A model generated the notes under the pieces. It made no database searches, had not been told where the DNA came from, and saw nothing but the letters and a program-made list of their open reading frames with translations. A DNA stretch of 64,000 nt from an uncultured Myxococcales bacterium (GTDB taxonomy: Bacteria; Myxococcota_A; UBA9042): assembly GCA_903842345.1 (NCBI GenBank), contig CAIMLR010000003.1, positions 62,001 to 126,000 on the forward strand. The letters run 5' to 3'. Shown here piece after piece: positions 21,797 to 29,780 of this stretch. A program made the position numbers and the translations under genes. Position 1 is the first letter of the stretch. Every line of letters starts with the position of its first letter.

Positions 21797-21825
21797 TTGC
21801 ATCGGCACCGCCAAAACGGTACTCC
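21797..21825 (+). promoter_or_regulatory. Candidate promoter of the giant NHL lipoprotein gene
   Basis: -35 TTGCAT (21797-21802), 17-bp spacer, -10 TACTCC (21820-21825), 43 bp before the start codon. Weak match at both boxes. Confidence 0.35.
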
Positions 21826-21868
21826 GCCATGGTGCTTGGATTGTGTGCGGCGGATGCGGGGCGGGATG

Positions 21869-24800
21869 ATGAATCGTTGGACAATTCTCCTGTTGGCGCT
21901 GGGGCTTGGCGCATGTGGAACCGCGGTCGATCCGGCCCATGGCGGCGTTGCCGACGCCAGTGAAGACGCCAGCGGCGACATCGGTGTGGCGGATGCCGGT
22001 GATCTGGCCAGTGGCCAAGGTGACGGGGCGCTGGGCGACACGTTCGTCCCGGACACGCCGGATGCCGTGGCGCCTGACGCCGACGCGACGGACGATGCCC
22101 TGACCGACGCCGCTGACTTGGCGGACGGGTCAGATGCCGAACTCGACGCCGCGCTTGACGCGGACGCGCTGGACGACGCGCAGACGGACGCGCAAACGCC
22201 CGACGCTGAGACCGACGGTGAGACCGATGCGCTGAAATTGGACCTGCCGCTGCTGCAGGACGTTCCGCTGTTGCCCGATGTGCCCGACGTCTCCGACGTG
22301 CCGGACGTGCCCGACGTGTCTGAGCCTGACGTTGAACTGCCGGACGTCCCGCCCGATTTGGGGCCGCCTGACGTGCCAGCCGCCGATCTGGGGATCGCCG
22401 ACGTGCCCGACATTGCCGACGTGCCCGACGTGATGGATTTGCCAGATCTGATCGACGTGCCGTTGGTGCCGGACGTGCCCGACGTGCCGGACCTTGTCGA
22501 CATCGTCGACGTGCCGGACGTGCCCGATCTCGCGGATATCGCCGACGTGCCCGATCTGCCCGATCTGCCCGATTTGCCCGATGTCCCGGACATCGCGGAC
22601 ATTGCGGACATTGCGGACGTGCCTGACGTTCCCGATGTGCCCGACGTCCCGGACGTGCCGCCTGACACCATCGCCGACGATCTCGGTCCCGATGACACCG
22701 GTCCCGTGGACACTGGTCCGGTCGACACGGGTCCGGTTGACACTGGCCCCGTGGACACTGGTCCCGTTGACACTGGTCCCGTGGACACTGGCCCGGTCGA
22801 CACTGGCCCCGCCGACACTGGTCCCGCTGACACTGGCCCCGACGCGGATGCGGACGTCCCGCCCGCTTGCGTGCCCACCGGCAATGGCGTGGAGTACTGC
22901 GACGGCATCGACAACGACTGCAACGGCTTGACCGACGAAGGCTCGTGTGACGACGCCAACGTCTGCACGACCGACACGTGCACGCCGCTGGGCTGCGACT
23001 ACACGATCGCCAACGGGCCCTGCAGCGACGGCAACGCGTGCACCGTCCCGGATGCCTGCAACGGCGGCTCCTGCATCGCCGGCAGCCCCAAGGTCTGCAC
23101 GCAAGCCTCGCAGTGCCACACGCCCACGTGCGACGTCGTCAGCGGGAACTGCACGGAGATCCCGGTGGTCGGCAAGATTCCCTGCGTCGACACCAACCCG
23201 TGCACGACGAGCGAATACTGCGTGGTCGGCGTGTGCACTGGCCTCGTCATCACCAACTGCGACGACGCCAACGTCTGCACGGACGACTCCTGCGATTCCA
23301 CAGGCGGCTGCGTCCACGTCTACAACACGCTCGCGTGCAGCGACGGCAACAACTGCAGCAAGCCCGACCAGTGCAGCAAGGGCGGCTGCATCGGCGGCCC
23401 GATCTTCAGTTGCGACGACAGCAATGTCTGCACCGTGGATTCCTGCAACGCGAGCGGCGGGTGCGACCACGTCGCGGTTGCCGACACGACCTTGTGCAAC
23501 GCGGACAGCTCCGAGTGCACCGTGGGCGACAAGTGCAAATCGGGCGTCTGCACGCCCGGAACCGCCAAGGTCTGCGACGACGGCAACGTCTGCACCACGG
23601 ACTCCTGCGCCAAGGCGACCGGCACGTGCGTCTTCCTGGCCAACAGCAGCTCCTGCAATGACGGCAACTTGTGCACAAGCCCGGATCAGTGCGCGATTTC
23701 CGGCCTGTGCATCGGCGTCGTGATCTCCTGCAACGACGGCCTTGTATGCACGACCGACAGCTGCGACATGGCGACCGGGAAGTGCAAGAACATCAACGTC
23801 GTTGGCGCGGCGTGTGACGACGGCAACGCGTGCACAAGCGGGGACGCGTGCGACAGCGCGGCCGCGTGCATCCCGGGCAGCGTCAACGCGTGCGAGGACA
23901 ACAACGCGTGCACCAGCGACGCTTGCGTGAGCAAGGCCTGCACGCACACCAACCTGACGACTGCGTGCAATGACAACACGGTCTGCACGACGGGCGAGAT
24001 GTGTGTGAACGCGGTGTGCTCGCCGCCGTCGGTCGCGCAAGTCAGCACGCTTGCGGGATCCGCCCTCGCGGGCTTGAAGGACGGCAAGGGCACGGCGGCG
24101 CAGTTCAGCAGCCCGCGCGGCTTGGCCCAGGACAGCGGCGGCACGATCTGGGTCGCGGACACGGGCAACAACGCCATTCGCAAGGTCGCGCCCGACGGCA
24201 CAGTGACGACCGTCGCGTGCACGTTTGCGGACACGCCGGCCAGTTTCAGCAGTCCGCAGAGCATCGCGCTCGCCAGCGACGGCACGCTGTGGATCGCGGA
24301 CACCGGCAACCACCGCATCCGCAAGCGCGCCACGGACGGCACGGTCACCACGTTGGCTGGCAGCGGCACCGCGGCGTTCGCCGACGGCAAGGGCGCCGCC
24401 GCGTCGTTCAGTTCGCCGTACGGCGTCGCCATCGGCCCCGGCGGCTGGCTCTTCATCGCGGACCGCGGCAACAACCGCATCCGGCGCATCTCGCCCGATG
24501 GCAACGTCACCACGCTCGCGGGCAGCGGCACGGCAGGATCGGCGTCCGGCACCGGCGCGGCCGCCAGCTTCAACGCGCCAAGCGGCATCGGCATCGGCAC
24601 CGGCGGCACGATTTTCGTCGCGGACTATGGCTCCAGCTTGCTGCGCGCGGTCACGGCGTCCGGCGTCGTCAGCACGTTGGCCGGCAGCACGAACGGCTAC
24701 GGCGACGGCGCGTTGCTCACCGCGAAGTTCAGCAACCCGATCGGCGTCTACATCACGCCCACAAGCGTTGGCCTCGCCGTCGTCGACACGGGCAACAACC

Positions 24801-27412
24801 GCGTGCGGTATGTCGCCAGCAACGCTGTCGCCACGGTTCTCGGCAGCACGTCCGGCTTCCAGGACGGCGGCTCGGACGTCGCCAAGTTCGCCGCGCCGCA
24901 ATCGCTCGTGATTTCGTCGGTCGGCGCGGTCGTGATCGCGGACACCGGCAACAACCGCATTCGCTTCGTGGTCATGCAGCAGACCGCGTGCGATGACGCC
25001 AACCCGTGCACCATTGACGTCTGCGACCCCGTCAAGGGCTGCACGTTCACGGCCGCGGCCAACGGCGCCGTCTGCACGGACAACGACGCGTGCAGCACGG
25101 GCGACGCGTGCACCTCGGGCGTGTGCACGGCCACGAGCAAGAACTGCGACGACGCCAACCTCTGCACGGATGACGTCTGCGACCCGGTCACCGGAACCTG
25201 CGGCCACAACAGCAACAGCGTGAGCTGCTCGGACGGCAACGCCTGCACGCTTGGCGACATCTGCACCGGCGGCACCTGCACGGCTGAACCCGGGACCGTC
25301 GCGACGCTCGCGGGCCAGCCACTCACCGGCAGCGCGGACGGCCTTGGCGCCGCAGCCAGCTTCAGCGGTCCGCGCCAGATGTGGAGCGACGGCAAGGGCG
25401 GCGTTTACGTCGCGGACACCGGCAACAACAAGATCCGCGACGTCGGCAAGGATGGCTCGGTCGCCACGTTCGCCGGCAGCGGCACGAGCGGCAGCAGCGA
25501 CGGCGGCATCGTGAGCGCGACGTTCAAGGCGCCCCAGGGCGTCACCGTCGACAACACCGGCAACGTCTGGGTCGCGGACACCGGCAACAACAAGCTGCGG
25601 GAAATCACCGGCGGCTTTGTCAGTTCGCCCGTGGGCACCGGCACGGCGGGCTGGAAAGACGGCGCGGGCGGCAGCGCGCAATTCAACGCGCCCCAAGCCA
25701 TCGCCGCCGACACGAACGGCAACCTGTTTGTCGCGGATACCGGCAACCACCGCATCCGCAAGGTCAAGCCGGACGGCACCGTCAGCACGCTCGCCGGCAC
25801 GGGCACGGCGGGCTTCAAGGACGGCGCCAACACCATCGCGCAGTTCTCCTCGCCGTCTGGCGTCGCCGTCGACGGCTTCCACAACGTCTACGTCGCGGAC
25901 ATGAACAACTACCGCATCCGCAAGGTCACGCCGGACGGCACGGTCAGCACCGTCGCCGGTTCGGGCAGCATCGGCCAAGCGGACGGCGCCGCGCTTTCCG
26001 CGACGTTCAACCAGCTGGGCCAGATCGCCTTTGATGCCAGCGGCAACCTCTGGACTGTCGACCACGGGACCCACCGCATCCGCAAGCTCAGCGCCGGCGG
26101 CACGGTCAGCACCCCGTTCAGCGCCACGGGCGGCGGCTTCAAGGACGGCGTCGCGACCGCCGCGCTGTTCTCCAGTCCGTACGGCGTCTGGGCGCTCAGC
26201 GACGGCACCCTCCTCGTTGGCGACGCCAGCAACAACCGCATCCGCAAGCACGCGCCAACCGCTGTCCTGTGCGGCGACGGCAACGACTGCACCACGGACA
26301 CCTGCGATCCCGCGACCGGGACGTGCGGCAGCAGCAACCTCGCCAACGGCGCGACCTGCCAGGGCGGGGATCCGTGCAGCGTCAGCAAGACGTGCGCCAG
26401 CGGCGTCTGCGGCGGCGGCTCGGTCAAGACGTGCAGCGACGCCAACGTTTGCACCGTGGACGCGTGCGACAGCGCCAGCGGCGCGTGCGCCTGGATGCCC
26501 GCGGCCACCTGCCAAGCCGTGCGCCGCGTCTTTGTCACAAGCGGCACTTTCACCGGCGCGCTCAGCGGTTTGACCGGCGCGGACAGCCAATGCCAGAGCG
26601 CCGCGGCCAGCAAGGCGTTGGGCGGCACGTGGAAAGCGTGGCTCAGCGACGCAACGGGCAGCCCCGCGACGCGATTTGACCAAGCCGGCGTGCCGTATTG
26701 GCTGCTCGACCGCACGCAGATCGCCAGCAATTGGGCCGATTTGACGGATGGATCGCTCGCGGCGCCGATCAGCCTCGACGAAACCGGCAAGACGCCCGCC
26801 GTCGCCGCGACCGGCACGAGCTGCTTCACCAACCCGATCCGCGTCTTCACCAACACCAGCCAGAACGGCACGGCGTTCTCCACCGCGGTCGCGGACACGT
26901 GCAACGCCTGGACGTACAACGGCAGCAACCTCACGGCGTACCACCAGCTCGACGGCTACGGCGACTTCAGCAACAACCAGTGGACAGAAGGCTGCGCCAA
27001 CGACTATTGCGACCGCGTGAGTCACCTCTACTGCTTTGAACAGGCGGACACCCTGGTGCTGAAGACGAGCGGCTACCACACCAACGGCAAGTTCTTCGTC
27101 ACCAACGCGACCTACGCGGGCGACTTCAACGCCGCGGGCGGCTTCTGCACGGCGCTTCTCGGGCAGACAGCCTACATCGCGAGCACGTCCGTTTTCCTGC
27201 CGGACACCGAGCCCTACACCGTGTGGGACGGCAACGGCGCGGCGAGCAGCACGTCCGTCAACTGTTCACTGTTCAGCAGCAGCCTGTCCGCGCAGAGCGG
27301 TGTCGGCGTCCAGGGCGGCAGCACGCCGTGCAACGTCAGCCGCGCGGTCGTCTGCAGCACCGACCCGAACGATTGCAGCGGCGGTTCAACGAACTGCGGC
27401 TTGTGGGACTGA
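21869..27412 (+). CDS. Giant lipoprotein: Asp-rich repeats, Cys-rich repeats and two six-bladed NHL propellers
   Basis: Cell-surface lipoprotein of 1,847 aa, function unknown. ATG 21869 (another ATG sits one codon earlier) opens MNRWTILLLALGLGAC with the acylated Cys16. Then in order: an acidic region (about 20-135); DVP repeats (about 136-270); DTGPV repeats (about 276-324); a MopE-type motif CDGIDNDCNGLTDEG (about 342-356); about 13 disulfide-rich units of the form CDDGNxCTxDxC (to about 715); six NHL blades (about 720-1040), each with a D-x-G-N-N-R-I-R core; four more Cys units; six more NHL blades (about 1145-1465); three Cys units; and a C-terminal region with two related segments (FVTSGTFTGALSGLTGADSQ near 1553 and FFVTNATYAGDF near 1743) resembling DUF1554. 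NHL propellers usually bind proteins or glycans. Isoaspartyl dipeptidase follows after 5 bp. Confidence 0.85.
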   Translation: MNRWTILLLALGLGACGTAVDPAHGGVADASEDASGDIGVADAGDLASGQGDGALGDTFVPDTPDAVAPDADATDDALTDAADLADGSDAELDAALDADALDDAQTDAQTPDAETDGETDALKLDLPLLQDVPLLPDVPDVSDVPDVPDVSEPDVELPDVPPDLGPPDVPAADLGIADVPDIADVPDVMDLPDLIDVPLVPDVPDVPDLVDIVDVPDVPDLADIADVPDLPDLPDLPDVPDIADIADIADVPDVPDVPDVPDVPPDTIADDLGPDDTGPVDTGPVDTGPVDTGPVDTGPVDTGPVDTGPVDTGPADTGPADTGPDADADVPPACVPTGNGVEYCDGIDNDCNGLTDEGSCDDANVCTTDTCTPLGCDYTIANGPCSDGNACTVPDACNGGSCIAGSPKVCTQASQCHTPTCDVVSGNCTEIPVVGKIPCVDTNPCTTSEYCVVGVCTGLVITNCDDANVCTDDSCDSTGGCVHVYNTLACSDGNNCSKPDQCSKGGCIGGPIFSCDDSNVCTVDSCNASGGCDHVAVADTTLCNADSSECTVGDKCKSGVCTPGTAKVCDDGNVCTTDSCAKATGTCVFLANSSSCNDGNLCTSPDQCAISGLCIGVVISCNDGLVCTTDSCDMATGKCKNINVVGAACDDGNACTSGDACDSAAACIPGSVNACEDNNACTSDACVSKACTHTNLTTACNDNTVCTTGEMCVNAVCSPPSVAQVSTLAGSALAGLKDGKGTAAQFSSPRGLAQDSGGTIWVADTGNNAIRKVAPDGTVTTVACTFADTPASFSSPQSIALASDGTLWIADTGNHRIRKRATDGTVTTLAGSGTAAFADGKGAAASFSSPYGVAIGPGGWLFIADRGNNRIRRISPDGNVTTLAGSGTAGSASGTGAAASFNAPSGIGIGTGGTIFVADYGSSLLRAVTASGVVSTLAGSTNGYGDGALLTAKFSNPIGVYITPTSVGLAVVDTGNNRVRYVASNAVATVLGSTSGFQDGGSDVAKFAAPQSLVISSVGAVVIADTGNNRIRFVVMQQTACDDANPCTIDVCDPVKGCTFTAAANGAVCTDNDACSTGDACTSGVCTATSKNCDDANLCTDDVCDPVTGTCGHNSNSVSCSDGNACTLGDICTGGTCTAEPGTVATLAGQPLTGSADGLGAAASFSGPRQMWSDGKGGVYVADTGNNKIRDVGKDGSVATFAGSGTSGSSDGGIVSATFKAPQGVTVDNTGNVWVADTGNNKLREITGGFVSSPVGTGTAGWKDGAGGSAQFNAPQAIAADTNGNLFVADTGNHRIRKVKPDGTVSTLAGTGTAGFKDGANTIAQFSSPSGVAVDGFHNVYVADMNNYRIRKVTPDGTVSTVAGSGSIGQADGAALSATFNQLGQIAFDASGNLWTVDHGTHRIRKLSAGGTVSTPFSATGGGFKDGVATAALFSSPYGVWALSDGTLLVGDASNNRIRKHAPTAVLCGDGNDCTTDTCDPATGTCGSSNLANGATCQGGDPCSVSKTCASGVCGGGSVKTCSDANVCTVDACDSASGACAWMPAATCQAVRRVFVTSGTFTGALSGLTGADSQCQSAAASKALGGTWKAWLSDATGSPATRFDQAGVPYWLLDRTQIASNWADLTDGSLAAPISLDETGKTPAVAATGTSCFTNPIRVFTNTSQNGTAFSTAVADTCNAWTYNGSNLTAYHQLDGYGDFSNNQWTEGCANDYCDRVSHLYCFEQADTLVLKTSGYHTNGKFFVTNATYAGDFNAAGGFCTALLGQTAYIASTSVFLPDTEPYTVWDGNGAASSTSVNCSLFSSSLSAQSGVGVQGGSTPCNVSRAVVCSTDPNDCSGGSTNCGLWD
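22276..22676 (+). repeat. DVP-type Asp-Val-Pro protein repeat region
   Basis: Encodes a long run built from DVPDVPDL-like units with occasional ADI and DL variants. Codons differ between neighbouring units (gtg, gtc or gtt; ccc, ccg or cct), so it is a protein-level repeat with diverged DNA. It probably forms an extended acidic stalk between the lipid anchor and the folded domains. Confidence 0.8.
22694..22840 (+). repeat. 15-bp tandem repeat encoding DTGPV/DTGPA
   Basis: 147 bases: seven DTGPV units, two DTGPA units and a final DTGP. The third codon positions vary from unit to unit while the peptide is constant. Placed between the DVP stalk and the Cys-rich part of the lipoprotein. Confidence 0.9.
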
Positions 27413-27417
27413 AACTT

Positions 27418-28581
27418 ATGATTCTGCTCAAAAATGCTGAAGTGTACGCGCCGCAGCGCTTGGGGCGTCGGGACCTGCTGGTGGCGGGCGGCAAGGTCGT
27501 TGCCTTGGCGGAACGGATGGATGCGCCGCACGGTTGGCCGGTTGAGGTCGTGGACCTGCACGGGCAGATCGTGATGCCCGGGCTGATCGATGGCCACACG
27601 CACCTGACGGGCGGCGGTGGCGAAGCGGGGGCGGCGACGCGCGTGCCATCGGTCCAGTTGACGCACCTGACGCTGGGCGGCGTGACGACGGCGATTGGCC
27701 TGCTGGGCACGGATGCGCGCACGCGGACGATCGCGGAACTGCTGGCGTGCGCGCGCGGCCTCAGCGAATTGGGCTTCAATGCGCTCTGCTACACCGGCAG
27801 CTATGAAGTGCCGCCGACGACGCTGACCGGCTCCGTGCGCGGCGACATCGTGCACATTGACCGGATCGTGGCGTGCGGGGAAGTCGCGCTGTCCGACCAT
27901 CGCTCCTCGCAGCCGACTTTTGACGAGCTTGTGAAGCTCGCGGCCGATTGCCACGTCGCGGGCATGATGACCGGCAAGGCCGGGCTGCTCCACTTGCACA
28001 TGGGCGACGGCAAGCGCGGCCTGCAGTTGATTCAGCGCGCGTTGGACGAGACGGAACTGCCGCCGCGGACGTTCCATCCGACCCACGTCAACCGCCAGAA
28101 GTGGCTGTGGCAGGACGCGAAGGCGCTCGCGCGGCGTGGCTGCACAGTGGACGCGACGGCGTTTCCCGCGGATGACGACTCACTTTCCGCTGCCCAGGCC
28201 ATGGCCGATTGGCTCGACTGCGACATGCCGCGCGACCGCCTCACGATCAGCTCCGATGGCGGCGGCTGCCTGCCGACGTTTGACGGCGACGGCGTGCTGC
28301 TGCACATGGACGTCGGCCGGAGCGCTGCGCTGCTCGAGGAGATCCGCGTGCTGGTGCAGGATGGCCGGGCGCTGGAAGACGTGCTGCCATTCGCGACGAG
28401 CAACGTCGCCAGGCTGTTCCGTTTGGCGCAGAAGGGCCACATCGCCGTGGGCGCTGACGCCGACCTTGTGGTGCTGACTTCCACGCATACCGTCCAGCAC
28501 GTGCTCATTGGCGGACAGTGGTTCGTGCGCGATGGCGTCGCCACCCGTCGCGGTTTGTTCGAGCGAAGCGACACAGTGTGA
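27418..28581 (+). CDS. iadA: Isoaspartyl dipeptidase (beta-aspartyl dipeptidase)
   Basis: Amidohydrolase-fold metalloenzyme that hydrolyses beta-aspartyl dipeptides left after breakdown of proteins with isomerised Asp/Asn. Start ATG 27418 (387 aa, normal for IadA), 5 bp after the stop of the giant lipoprotein. The first metal-binding motif is MPGLIDGHTHLTGGGGE (His60 and His62). Family segments GGVTTAIGLLGTD (about 95-107), ALCYTGSYEVPPTTLTGS, the metal-binding HLHMGDGKRGL, PTHVNRQKWLWQDA and the catalytic SSDGGGCLPTFDGDG near 275 are all present. No signal peptide, so cytosolic. The frame upstream of 27418 overlaps the lipoprotein and is incidental. Coupling to an Asp- and Gly-rich surface protein may be meaningful. 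Confidence 0.92.
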   Translation: MILLKNAEVYAPQRLGRRDLLVAGGKVVALAERMDAPHGWPVEVVDLHGQIVMPGLIDGHTHLTGGGGEAGAATRVPSVQLTHLTLGGVTTAIGLLGTDARTRTIAELLACARGLSELGFNALCYTGSYEVPPTTLTGSVRGDIVHIDRIVACGEVALSDHRSSQPTFDELVKLAADCHVAGMMTGKAGLLHLHMGDGKRGLQLIQRALDETELPPRTFHPTHVNRQKWLWQDAKALARRGCTVDATAFPADDDSLSAAQAMADWLDCDMPRDRLTISSDGGGCLPTFDGDGVLLHMDVGRSAALLEEIRVLVQDGRALEDVLPFATSNVARLFRLAQKGHIAVGADADLVVLTSTHTVQHVLIGGQWFVRDGVATRRGLFERSDTV

Positions 28582-28627
28582 GACGTTGTGAGACATTCGC
28601 GAGACACTTCCGAGACAATGTGAGACA
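28577..28627 (+). repeat. Five helically phased GAGAC boxes
   Basis: GAGAC begins at 28580, 28590, 28601, 28612 and 28622, spaced 10, 11, 11 and 10 bp. The units resemble (T)TGTGAGACA. The run starts in the stop codon of iadA. One unit per helical turn places every box on the same face of the DNA, as in arrays bound by oligomerising regulators. Confidence 0.65.
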
Positions 28628-28698: not shown

Positions 28699-28716
28699 CA
28701 GATTCGCCAGAATCTG
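28699..28716 (+). repeat. Perfect 7-bp hairpin
   Basis: Arms CAGATTC (28699-28705) and GAATCTG (28710-28716) with the 4-base loop GCCA. No T-run follows, so it is not a classical terminator. Confidence 0.5.
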
Positions 28717-28816
28717 GCACGCAACGTGCAATGTCTCCATGCAGATGGCGCGTGCCCCACCGTGCGCCATGCTCTGGGTTGCTACAGCGCTCCACGTTCG
28801 AGCCTGTTCGACCTCG

Positions 28817-28938
28817 CGCTGCGTGCCCCGATCACGCAGCGGAGTGACCTGCCCCACACGGTCGCTCCGTAGTGAAGCGCCGGCCGGCCCCACACTGGCC
28901 GGCGCTTCGCTCCGCGGCTCCTCGCTCCGGCGTGTGGG
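28817..28938 (+). ncRNA. Candidate structured RNA: three tandem hairpins with GCCCC loops
   Basis: Hairpin A: CGCTGCGT/ACGCAGCG (28817-28824, 28834-28841), loop GCCCCGATC. Hairpin B: CGGAGTGACC/GGTCGCTCCG (28840-28849, 28860-28869), nine Watson-Crick pairs and one G-U, loop TGCCCCACAC. Hairpin C: AGTGAAGCGCCGGCC/GGCCGGCGCTTCGCT (28871-28885, 28897-28911), 14 Watson-Crick pairs and one G-U, loop GGCCCCACACT. B and C share AGTGA/TCGCT in the stem, with the wobble at the same place, so they look like copies. The segment CGTGTGGG (28931-28938) can pair with loop B. It could be a leader of the HEAT gene, a small RNA or a repeat element. Transcription is not shown. Confidence 0.45.
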
Positions 28939-29039
28939 TTGGCGACTCCCGTTCATCCCTCGACGGCAAGGCTACCCGCGCGCGCGCCTTTCGCGCTACA
29001 CTGTGTGGGCTGCTGGCTGGGTCCGGCGACAGGTTGCTC

Positions 29040-29780
29040 ATGTCTTCCCACGCCACGATTTTCCGCGAAGTGCGCAGCGCGGACGCCGACGCTTGCGCGC
29101 GTGGCCTCCGCCGCGTGACGCAAATGCTCGCCACGGATTCCGTCCACGGCAAACGGCCGGCCGATTGGCAAGCCCAGCGCGACGCCCTGGCGGAACTGGA
29201 GCCGCGCTTCCTGGAGTTGGCGACAGGTGCTGACGATGTGCTGCGCGAGCTTGTGGCGGACCTTCTGGGTGCGTGGCTGGGCGATGCGGCGCGCAACGCG
29301 CTGTTGGTGCTGGCTCGCGATGGCGCTGAACGTGTGCGCGCGTCGGCCGTAGGCGCGCTGGAGTCCTGGCCGGAGAGCCCCGAGGCCCGCGAGGCAGTGC
29401 TGGACGGCGCGCAGTCCAACAAGTGGACGATCCGCATGCGCGCTGCCCGCGCCCTGTACGCGTTTGAGGGCCCGGAGATCGTCGACGCGCTTTTTACCGC
29501 GCTCGTCGACGACGACAGCTACGTGCGCCAGGGGGCCGCCGACAGCCTCGCCCGCCGCCCGCTGCCGGAGTTTCACACGCGCCTGCGTCGTCTCGCTGAC
29601 TACCCCATGCCGCACATGCTCGACGCCGCGATGGACCTCTTTGGCACGATCGGCAATGCGGAGGACGCGGCGTTCCTCGCCAAGACGGGCTCGTGGCTCA
29701 ACCTGTCGCAGCCGAGCTTTGTCCGCGCCTGGGCGCGCAAGGCCGCCAAACGCATCCGCGCGCGGCTCGCGATTCGCTAA
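29040..29780 (+). CDS. HEAT-repeat protein
   Basis: Start at ATG 29040 (246 aa); the longer frame to 28872 runs through the hairpin region and is unlikely. From about residue 60 onward the protein is a solenoid of helical pairs typical of HEAT repeats: VLRELVADLLGAWLGDAARN, LLVLARDGAERVRASAVGAL, AVLDGAQSNKWTIRMRAARAL, ALVDDDSYVRQGAADSLA, each with the Ala-hydrophobic pattern and D-x-x-V-R turns. No signal peptide or catalytic motif. Such proteins usually serve as binding scaffolds. It lies 14 bp before the DedA gene on the same strand, so cotranscription is likely. Confidence 0.72.
   Translation: MSSHATIFREVRSADADACARGLRRVTQMLATDSVHGKRPADWQAQRDALAELEPRFLELATGADDVLRELVADLLGAWLGDAARNALLVLARDGAERVRASAVGALESWPESPEAREAVLDGAQSNKWTIRMRAARALYAFEGPEIVDALFTALVDDDSYVRQGAADSLARRPLPEFHTRLRRLADYPMPHMLDAAMDLFGTIGNAEDAAFLAKTGSWLNLSQPSFVRAWARKAAKRIRARLAIR

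Follow-up and report, generated by a model that had tools for sequence, protein, structure and literature searches.

The window analysed here is a stretch of 64,000 nucleotides from uncultured lake Myxococcota; where the records of relatives carry names, they are of uncultured Myxococcales assembled from metagenomes. A repeat array, a promoter and five hairpins lie between two same-strand genes, in DNA with a GC content of 67%, and are given below together with their neighbours (two-sided pairs are base pairs changed on both sides yet still paired).

27418..28581, + strand: isoaspartyl dipeptidase gene (iadA-like; TIGR01975 above cut-off), upstream neighbour, outside the RNA
28579..28627, + strand: five (T/C)GAGAC(A/G) direct repeats, candidate activator (enhancer) sites, kept in all five genus members
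28715..28732, + strand: sigma-54 -24/-12 promoter TGGCACGCAACGTGCAAT, fitting the TGGCACG-N4-TTGCW consensus
28742..28911, + strand: predicted small RNA of five helices (covariance model matches, 62 pairs, two-sided changes)
28745..28770, + strand: hairpin 1, ATGGCGCGTGCCCCACCGTGCGCCAT, with the loop GUGCCCCACC region; three two-sided pairs
28777..28813, + strand: hairpin 2, loop of (C)CCGUUC type, its stem least regular in the source species; three two-sided pairs
28817..28841, + strand: hairpin 3, CGCTGCGTG / CACGCAGCG, loop CCCCGAU; one two-sided pair
28842..28867, + strand: hairpin 4, loop CUGCCCCACACG, the best-conserved part, with 25-26 of 26 bases identical in each relative
28871..28911, + strand: hairpin 5, 16-18 pairs, loop CCCCACAC; six two-sided pairs
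29040..29780, + strand: HEAT-repeat protein gene (Pfam HEAT_2), downstream neighbour, outside the RNA

A sequence-only reading of this stretch had reported three tandem hairpins, A, B and C, and these are present as described (hairpins 3, 4 and 5); the set was incomplete, lacking hairpin 2 and also hairpin 1, whose loop is the same. The claim of a structure beyond chance has held up well, since the folding stability has a z of -4.3 against dinucleotide shuffles, none of 200 being equally stable. Across the full 64 kb, both strands included, a search also found exactly four hairpins of at least 8 pairs with GCCCC in the loop, all of them inside 167 bases at this locus, while shuffled whole windows gave 0-3 each, dispersed across the 64 kb. 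Conservation ends at hairpin 5, which has no U-tract on its 3′ side and is probably the 3′ end of the RNA, as a terminator or a stabilizer. The loop-complementary tail CGTGTGGG does exist at 28931-28938, but outside the conserved RNA, past its 3′ end, and the relatives lack it, so that the proposed pseudoknot or switch with the loop of hairpin 4 is not sustained. Likewise, the AGTGA/TCGCT match between the stems of B and C, once taken as a sign that one was copied from the other, is no evidence of duplication because the relatives do not share it, C being GGTGAA...TTCACC in two of them.

The fold was then compared across the genus in an alignment of five sequences and 172 columns, a small set for covariation. 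The consensus comprises five helices and 62 pairs, and 97% of its cells are paired across the five sequences, a figure biased in favour of the structure since the structure was derived from the same five sequences. Thirteen pairs have changed on both sides and are still paired, which none of 500 shuffles reaches and of which a control with slid partners leaves 1-3. The sequence-only reading had named a lack of compensatory changes in relatives, and likewise copies scattered beside unrelated genes, as outcomes that would refute it; neither applies here. The occurrence of two-sided changes in four of the five helices is stronger evidence than the percentage paired; hairpin 4, which is almost invariant, has none. 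The stretch is thus structured, and it is also non-coding, in that indels and stop codons leave no reading frame intact across the five genus members.

While the stems vary with compensation, the C-rich loops stay fixed, which points to the loops as the likely working part of the RNA. Such loops are carried by four of the five hairpins (GUGCCCCACC, CCCCGAU, CUGCCCCACACG and CCCACAC). The loop GUGCCCCACC of hairpin 1 is constant in the genus except for one base in G001, and CCCCGAU of hairpin 3 and CUGCCCCACACG of hairpin 4 are invariant in the five genomes.

In a whole-genome search the stretch was found in all four other genomes of the genus at 80-85% identity, with no credible match outside the genus. 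A covariance model of the RNA, a kind of search that had been suggested, matched the five genus members with E values of 1e-22 to 1e-33, one copy each; when run over 22 genomes of the family and 52 of the class it matched within the genus only. The region 3′ of iadA in other genera holds no counterpart of the RNA, plasmid and viral sequences gave no match to it, and the source genome has no second copy elsewhere. One match in Bryobacteraceae from the DNA scan was discarded as chance, as it lies inside an apparent diaminopimelate decarboxylase gene. In all five genus members the RNA follows the isoaspartyl dipeptidase gene, and conservation comes in blocks (array, -24/-12 element and RNA), the spacers and the downstream region being near random. 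An inert palindromic repeat of the REP kind, or a chance structure in GC-rich DNA, would account for adjacent palindromes, and 67% GC favours hairpins in general; a REP-like family, however, needs scattered copies, and none were found. Against the single copy per genome, the compensatory changes, and a promoter and position fixed in five genomes, neither the repeat family once envisaged nor a chance origin retains any appreciable probability.

What follows the RNA is less constant. The next gene on the 3′ side is the HEAT-repeat gene in the source genome and in G004; in G001 and G002 the two are separated by more than 1 kb of other genes, and in G003 two other genes come before HEAT, on a contig starting with the other half of hairpin 5. 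The HEAT gene has its own conserved promoter-like box TTTCGCGCTACACT (TACACT, 28997-29002), kept in all relatives even where genes intervene. The variable downstream gene and this separate box argue for the hairpins being an independent gene and not a leader. An element in the leader or 3′ untranslated region of an adjacent protein gene, acting as an attenuator or switch, would suit the position between two same-strand genes, but it would have to contend with a sigma-54 promoter of the RNA's own after iadA, with other genes that take up roughly 1 kb or more ahead of HEAT in each of G001, G002 and G003, with the box in front of HEAT and with a tail complement that is not conserved. We regard such an element, including a leader of the HEAT gene (a leader having been among the earlier suggestions), as very improbable. 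The G003 assembly is itself split in the loop of hairpin 5, the two halves of the stem lying at the ends of contigs C167 and C321.

The promoter core TGGCACGNNNNGTGCA, with 12 bases from GG to GC, is present directly upstream of the RNA in all five genus genomes; its flanks are poorly conserved, and the predicted RNA starts right behind it. From the usual 12-base spacing after the -12 element, the start is predicted at about 28741, a few bases 5′ of hairpin 1. Further upstream, the TGAGAC repeats are spaced 10-11 bases apart, the first overlapping the iadA stop codon, and in four of the five genus members 108-109 bases separate the end of the array from the -24 element. Judged by its sequence, the combination of array and promoter is the layout of a textbook activator-dependent sigma-54 promoter, the conserved array supplying the predicted activator sites. 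With its own sigma-54 promoter, compensatory changes, a single copy per genome and a fixed position, the reading of window positions 28742-28911 as a stand-alone small RNA gene, with a predicted transcript of about 170 nt, is well supported, and the earlier suggestion of a small RNA has therefore stood. It is a new small RNA family of a known general kind and of narrow range, confined to one genus.

In the Gammaproteobacteria, sigma-54 promoters with upstream activator sites drive the small RNAs Qrr, GlmY/GlmZ, CrcZ and NrsZ. The RNA described here resembles them in this promoter architecture, but it differs from them in sequence and fold and has no Rfam match. Qrr (PMC10162802) and GlmY/GlmZ (PMC7073468) are reported to be sigma-54-dependent.

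The array is not restricted to the RNA. A triple TGAGAC pattern matched 13 times across the five genus genomes (reversed-pattern control, 0), and all 13 matches lie at three kinds of locus, namely the RNA, comM/yifB (assigned via TIGR00368) and a gene for a predicted secreted protein located near rplM. At each kind of locus a sigma-54-like element stands 3′ of the array, in some cases with a weaker -12 part, against a background for the sigma-54 promoter pattern of 0.02 per 300 bases. Three genus genomes have comM/yifB behind such an array and promoter. The secreted protein (LVISEIQ..GEFVEVVNL) is encoded behind a TGAGACC array and a sigma-54-like promoter at six loci, its gene occurring in this setting in all five genus genomes and, as a relative, in G005; in the source genome the array is slightly looser, again with a sigma-54 element. 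The one secreted protein tested had no match in Pfam, and its reading as lamin-tail-like, made by eye, was dropped.

Since the activator motif is common to the RNA, comM/yifB and the secreted-protein gene, the RNA probably responds to the signal that governs the other two. A common activator for all three is likely, but the comM and secreted-protein arrays read TGAGACC, have 9-10 base steps and lie nearer the promoter, whereas the array of the RNA reads TGAGACA, and these differences in variant, step and promoter distance leave a single shared activator less than certain. We know of no sigma-54 control of comM. In other bacteria comM is a natural transformation gene, and the shared signal is possibly linked to DNA uptake. 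PilR, suggested as the activator by the TGTC in the reverse complement, was set aside because the pilA sites differ; in the source genome pilA has a sigma-54 promoter and TGACA/TGTCA palindromes without a TGAGAC array. Of roughly 20 sigma-54 activators encoded in the source genome, the closest activator domain lies about 27 kb from the RNA. The pilB-pilC-pilS-pilR-pilA cluster is found at one contig end of the source genome (7000-7644 of locus L211, G000:C27), where TGTGACAAAAAGTGTCAC-type palindromes precede the pilA sigma-54 promoter and the pilA leader has complementary C-rich and G-rich stretches.

From these features we propose the following mode of action. A bacterial enhancer-binding protein would recognise the TGAGAC array at 28579-28627 and loop to the sigma-54 polymerase at 28715-28732, which, once activated, would make a transcript of about 170 nt from near 28741. 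The transcript is expected to fold into five stable hairpins that expose C-rich single-stranded loops, hairpin 5 closing and stabilizing the RNA. These loops could be repeated seeds for pairing with G-rich stretches of mRNAs, namely ribosome-binding regions, and the pairing would lower translation of the target mRNAs. On the precedents of 6C/B11 and Pxr discussed below, we propose a trans-acting small RNA that would pair via several equivalent C-rich loops. The exact complement of loop 4 was not found conserved at a ribosome-binding site among 87 GTGTGGGGCA sites; most of these sites lie within reading frames, where they encode Val-Trp-Gly; the sites were clustered by homology, and the conserved ones, for example in an apparent rplM, are such codons. 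Since this initial target scan was negative, the pairing step is one that we infer. As a whole, the explanation as a sigma-54-driven, activator-array-controlled, five-hairpin trans-acting small RNA pairing through repeated C-rich loops is the one we consider likely.

The negative target scan also fits a sigma-54-dependent RNA that pairs with no mRNA and instead titrates an RNA-binding regulator through identical loops, as CsrB/RsmY-type RNAs do. Like them, the RNA here repeats one loop motif within one molecule, and invariant loops also agree with this layout. The CsrB/RsmY motif, however, is GGA, needed by CsrA, whereas the loops here have GCCCC, and we know of no established C-loop-binding protein of the titrated-regulator type; titration thus seems unlikely. 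Less probable still is that the RNA acts as a sponge or a decoy towards a different small RNA with G-rich seeds. Repeated CCCC loops could act as bait, and a loop complement, GTGTGGG, lies nearby in the source genome, but it is not conserved, and no partner RNA is known to us.

Close to the proposed pairing RNA, and on present evidence from the same phylum, is Pxr of Myxococcus xanthus and relatives (Cystobacterineae). Pxr has a sigma-54 promoter and, upstream of it, an enhancer-binding region; the RNA consists of consecutive stable stem-loops, the first with a C-rich loop (ancestral positions 13-33, ending GGTTCCCCCC) in which a C-to-A change abolishes function, in a host without Hfq (PMC5568312, PMC5684412). 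Pxr gates multicellular development, and its direct binding targets were called unknown as late as 2025 (PMC11928866). The RNA here shares the sigma-54 promoter with candidate enhancer sites, the consecutive hairpins and the C-rich loops, which are present and invariant. In contrast to the three stem-loops and about 110 nt of Pxr, it has five hairpins and about 170 nt; it adjoins iadA and the HEAT gene, whereas Pxr adjoins its activator gene pxrR/nla19; and Pxr is known only from Cystobacterineae. No sequence resemblance between the two was seen, but no pxr locus was at hand for comparison, as an 18-base string from a published pxr primer occurred in none of 379 genomes of the phylum.

In the actinobacterial 6C/B11, C-rich hairpin loops pair with G-rich ribosome-binding regions, and the RNA is reported to act without an RNA chaperone (PMC10470900). 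The likeness lies in stable hairpins displaying C-rich loops; 6C/B11 differs in having two C6 loops, in its phylum and in not being known as sigma-54 dependent. Rfam yielded nothing credible, whether searched at gathering score or with E values up to 10, and no weak match was 6C. With five hairpins instead of three, no neighbouring pxrR and no Rfam match, the RNA is not classed as Pxr or 6C; we propose that it may work like both and yet belong to neither.

A second candidate occurs in one genome of another genus of the same family, G008 (contig C165, reverse strand, about 1500-1890), where a TGAGACA array and a near-consensus sigma-54 element stand with a multi-hairpin intergenic stretch. The element TGGCACGCAACGTGTT agrees with the source promoter in its first 14 bases and has T for C at -12. 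Several hairpins there have runs of 6-8 C as loops, with a z of -5.1, and neither the covariance model nor Rfam matched the stretch. By its sequence it may be either a very diverged relative or an independent RNA built on the same plan. The same plan of sigma-54, activator array and C-rich loops in an unrelated-looking RNA suggests that the plan is general. Tentatively, and with rather less than even confidence, we extend this to the idea of a recurrent class in Myxococcota, in which sigma-54 activators switch on RNAs of several hairpins with C-rich loops (the RNA here, that of G008 and Pxr), in the present case within a comM/DNA-uptake-like regulon.

Small RNAs of the Myxococcota are barely charted, and the RNA in uncultured relatives gives a comparative handle on the function of C-rich loops. 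Should such a recurring class be true, it would offer a second, independent route to how Pxr-type RNAs find their targets. The shared TGAGAC array ties the RNA to comM, so that both regulon and activator can be tested directly. Upstream of iadA, window positions 21797-27412 encode a predicted secreted protein of very large size, which contains long (DVPDVPDL)n and DTGPVDTGPV repeats as well as CxxxNxCTTDxC repeats and NHL-like repeats.
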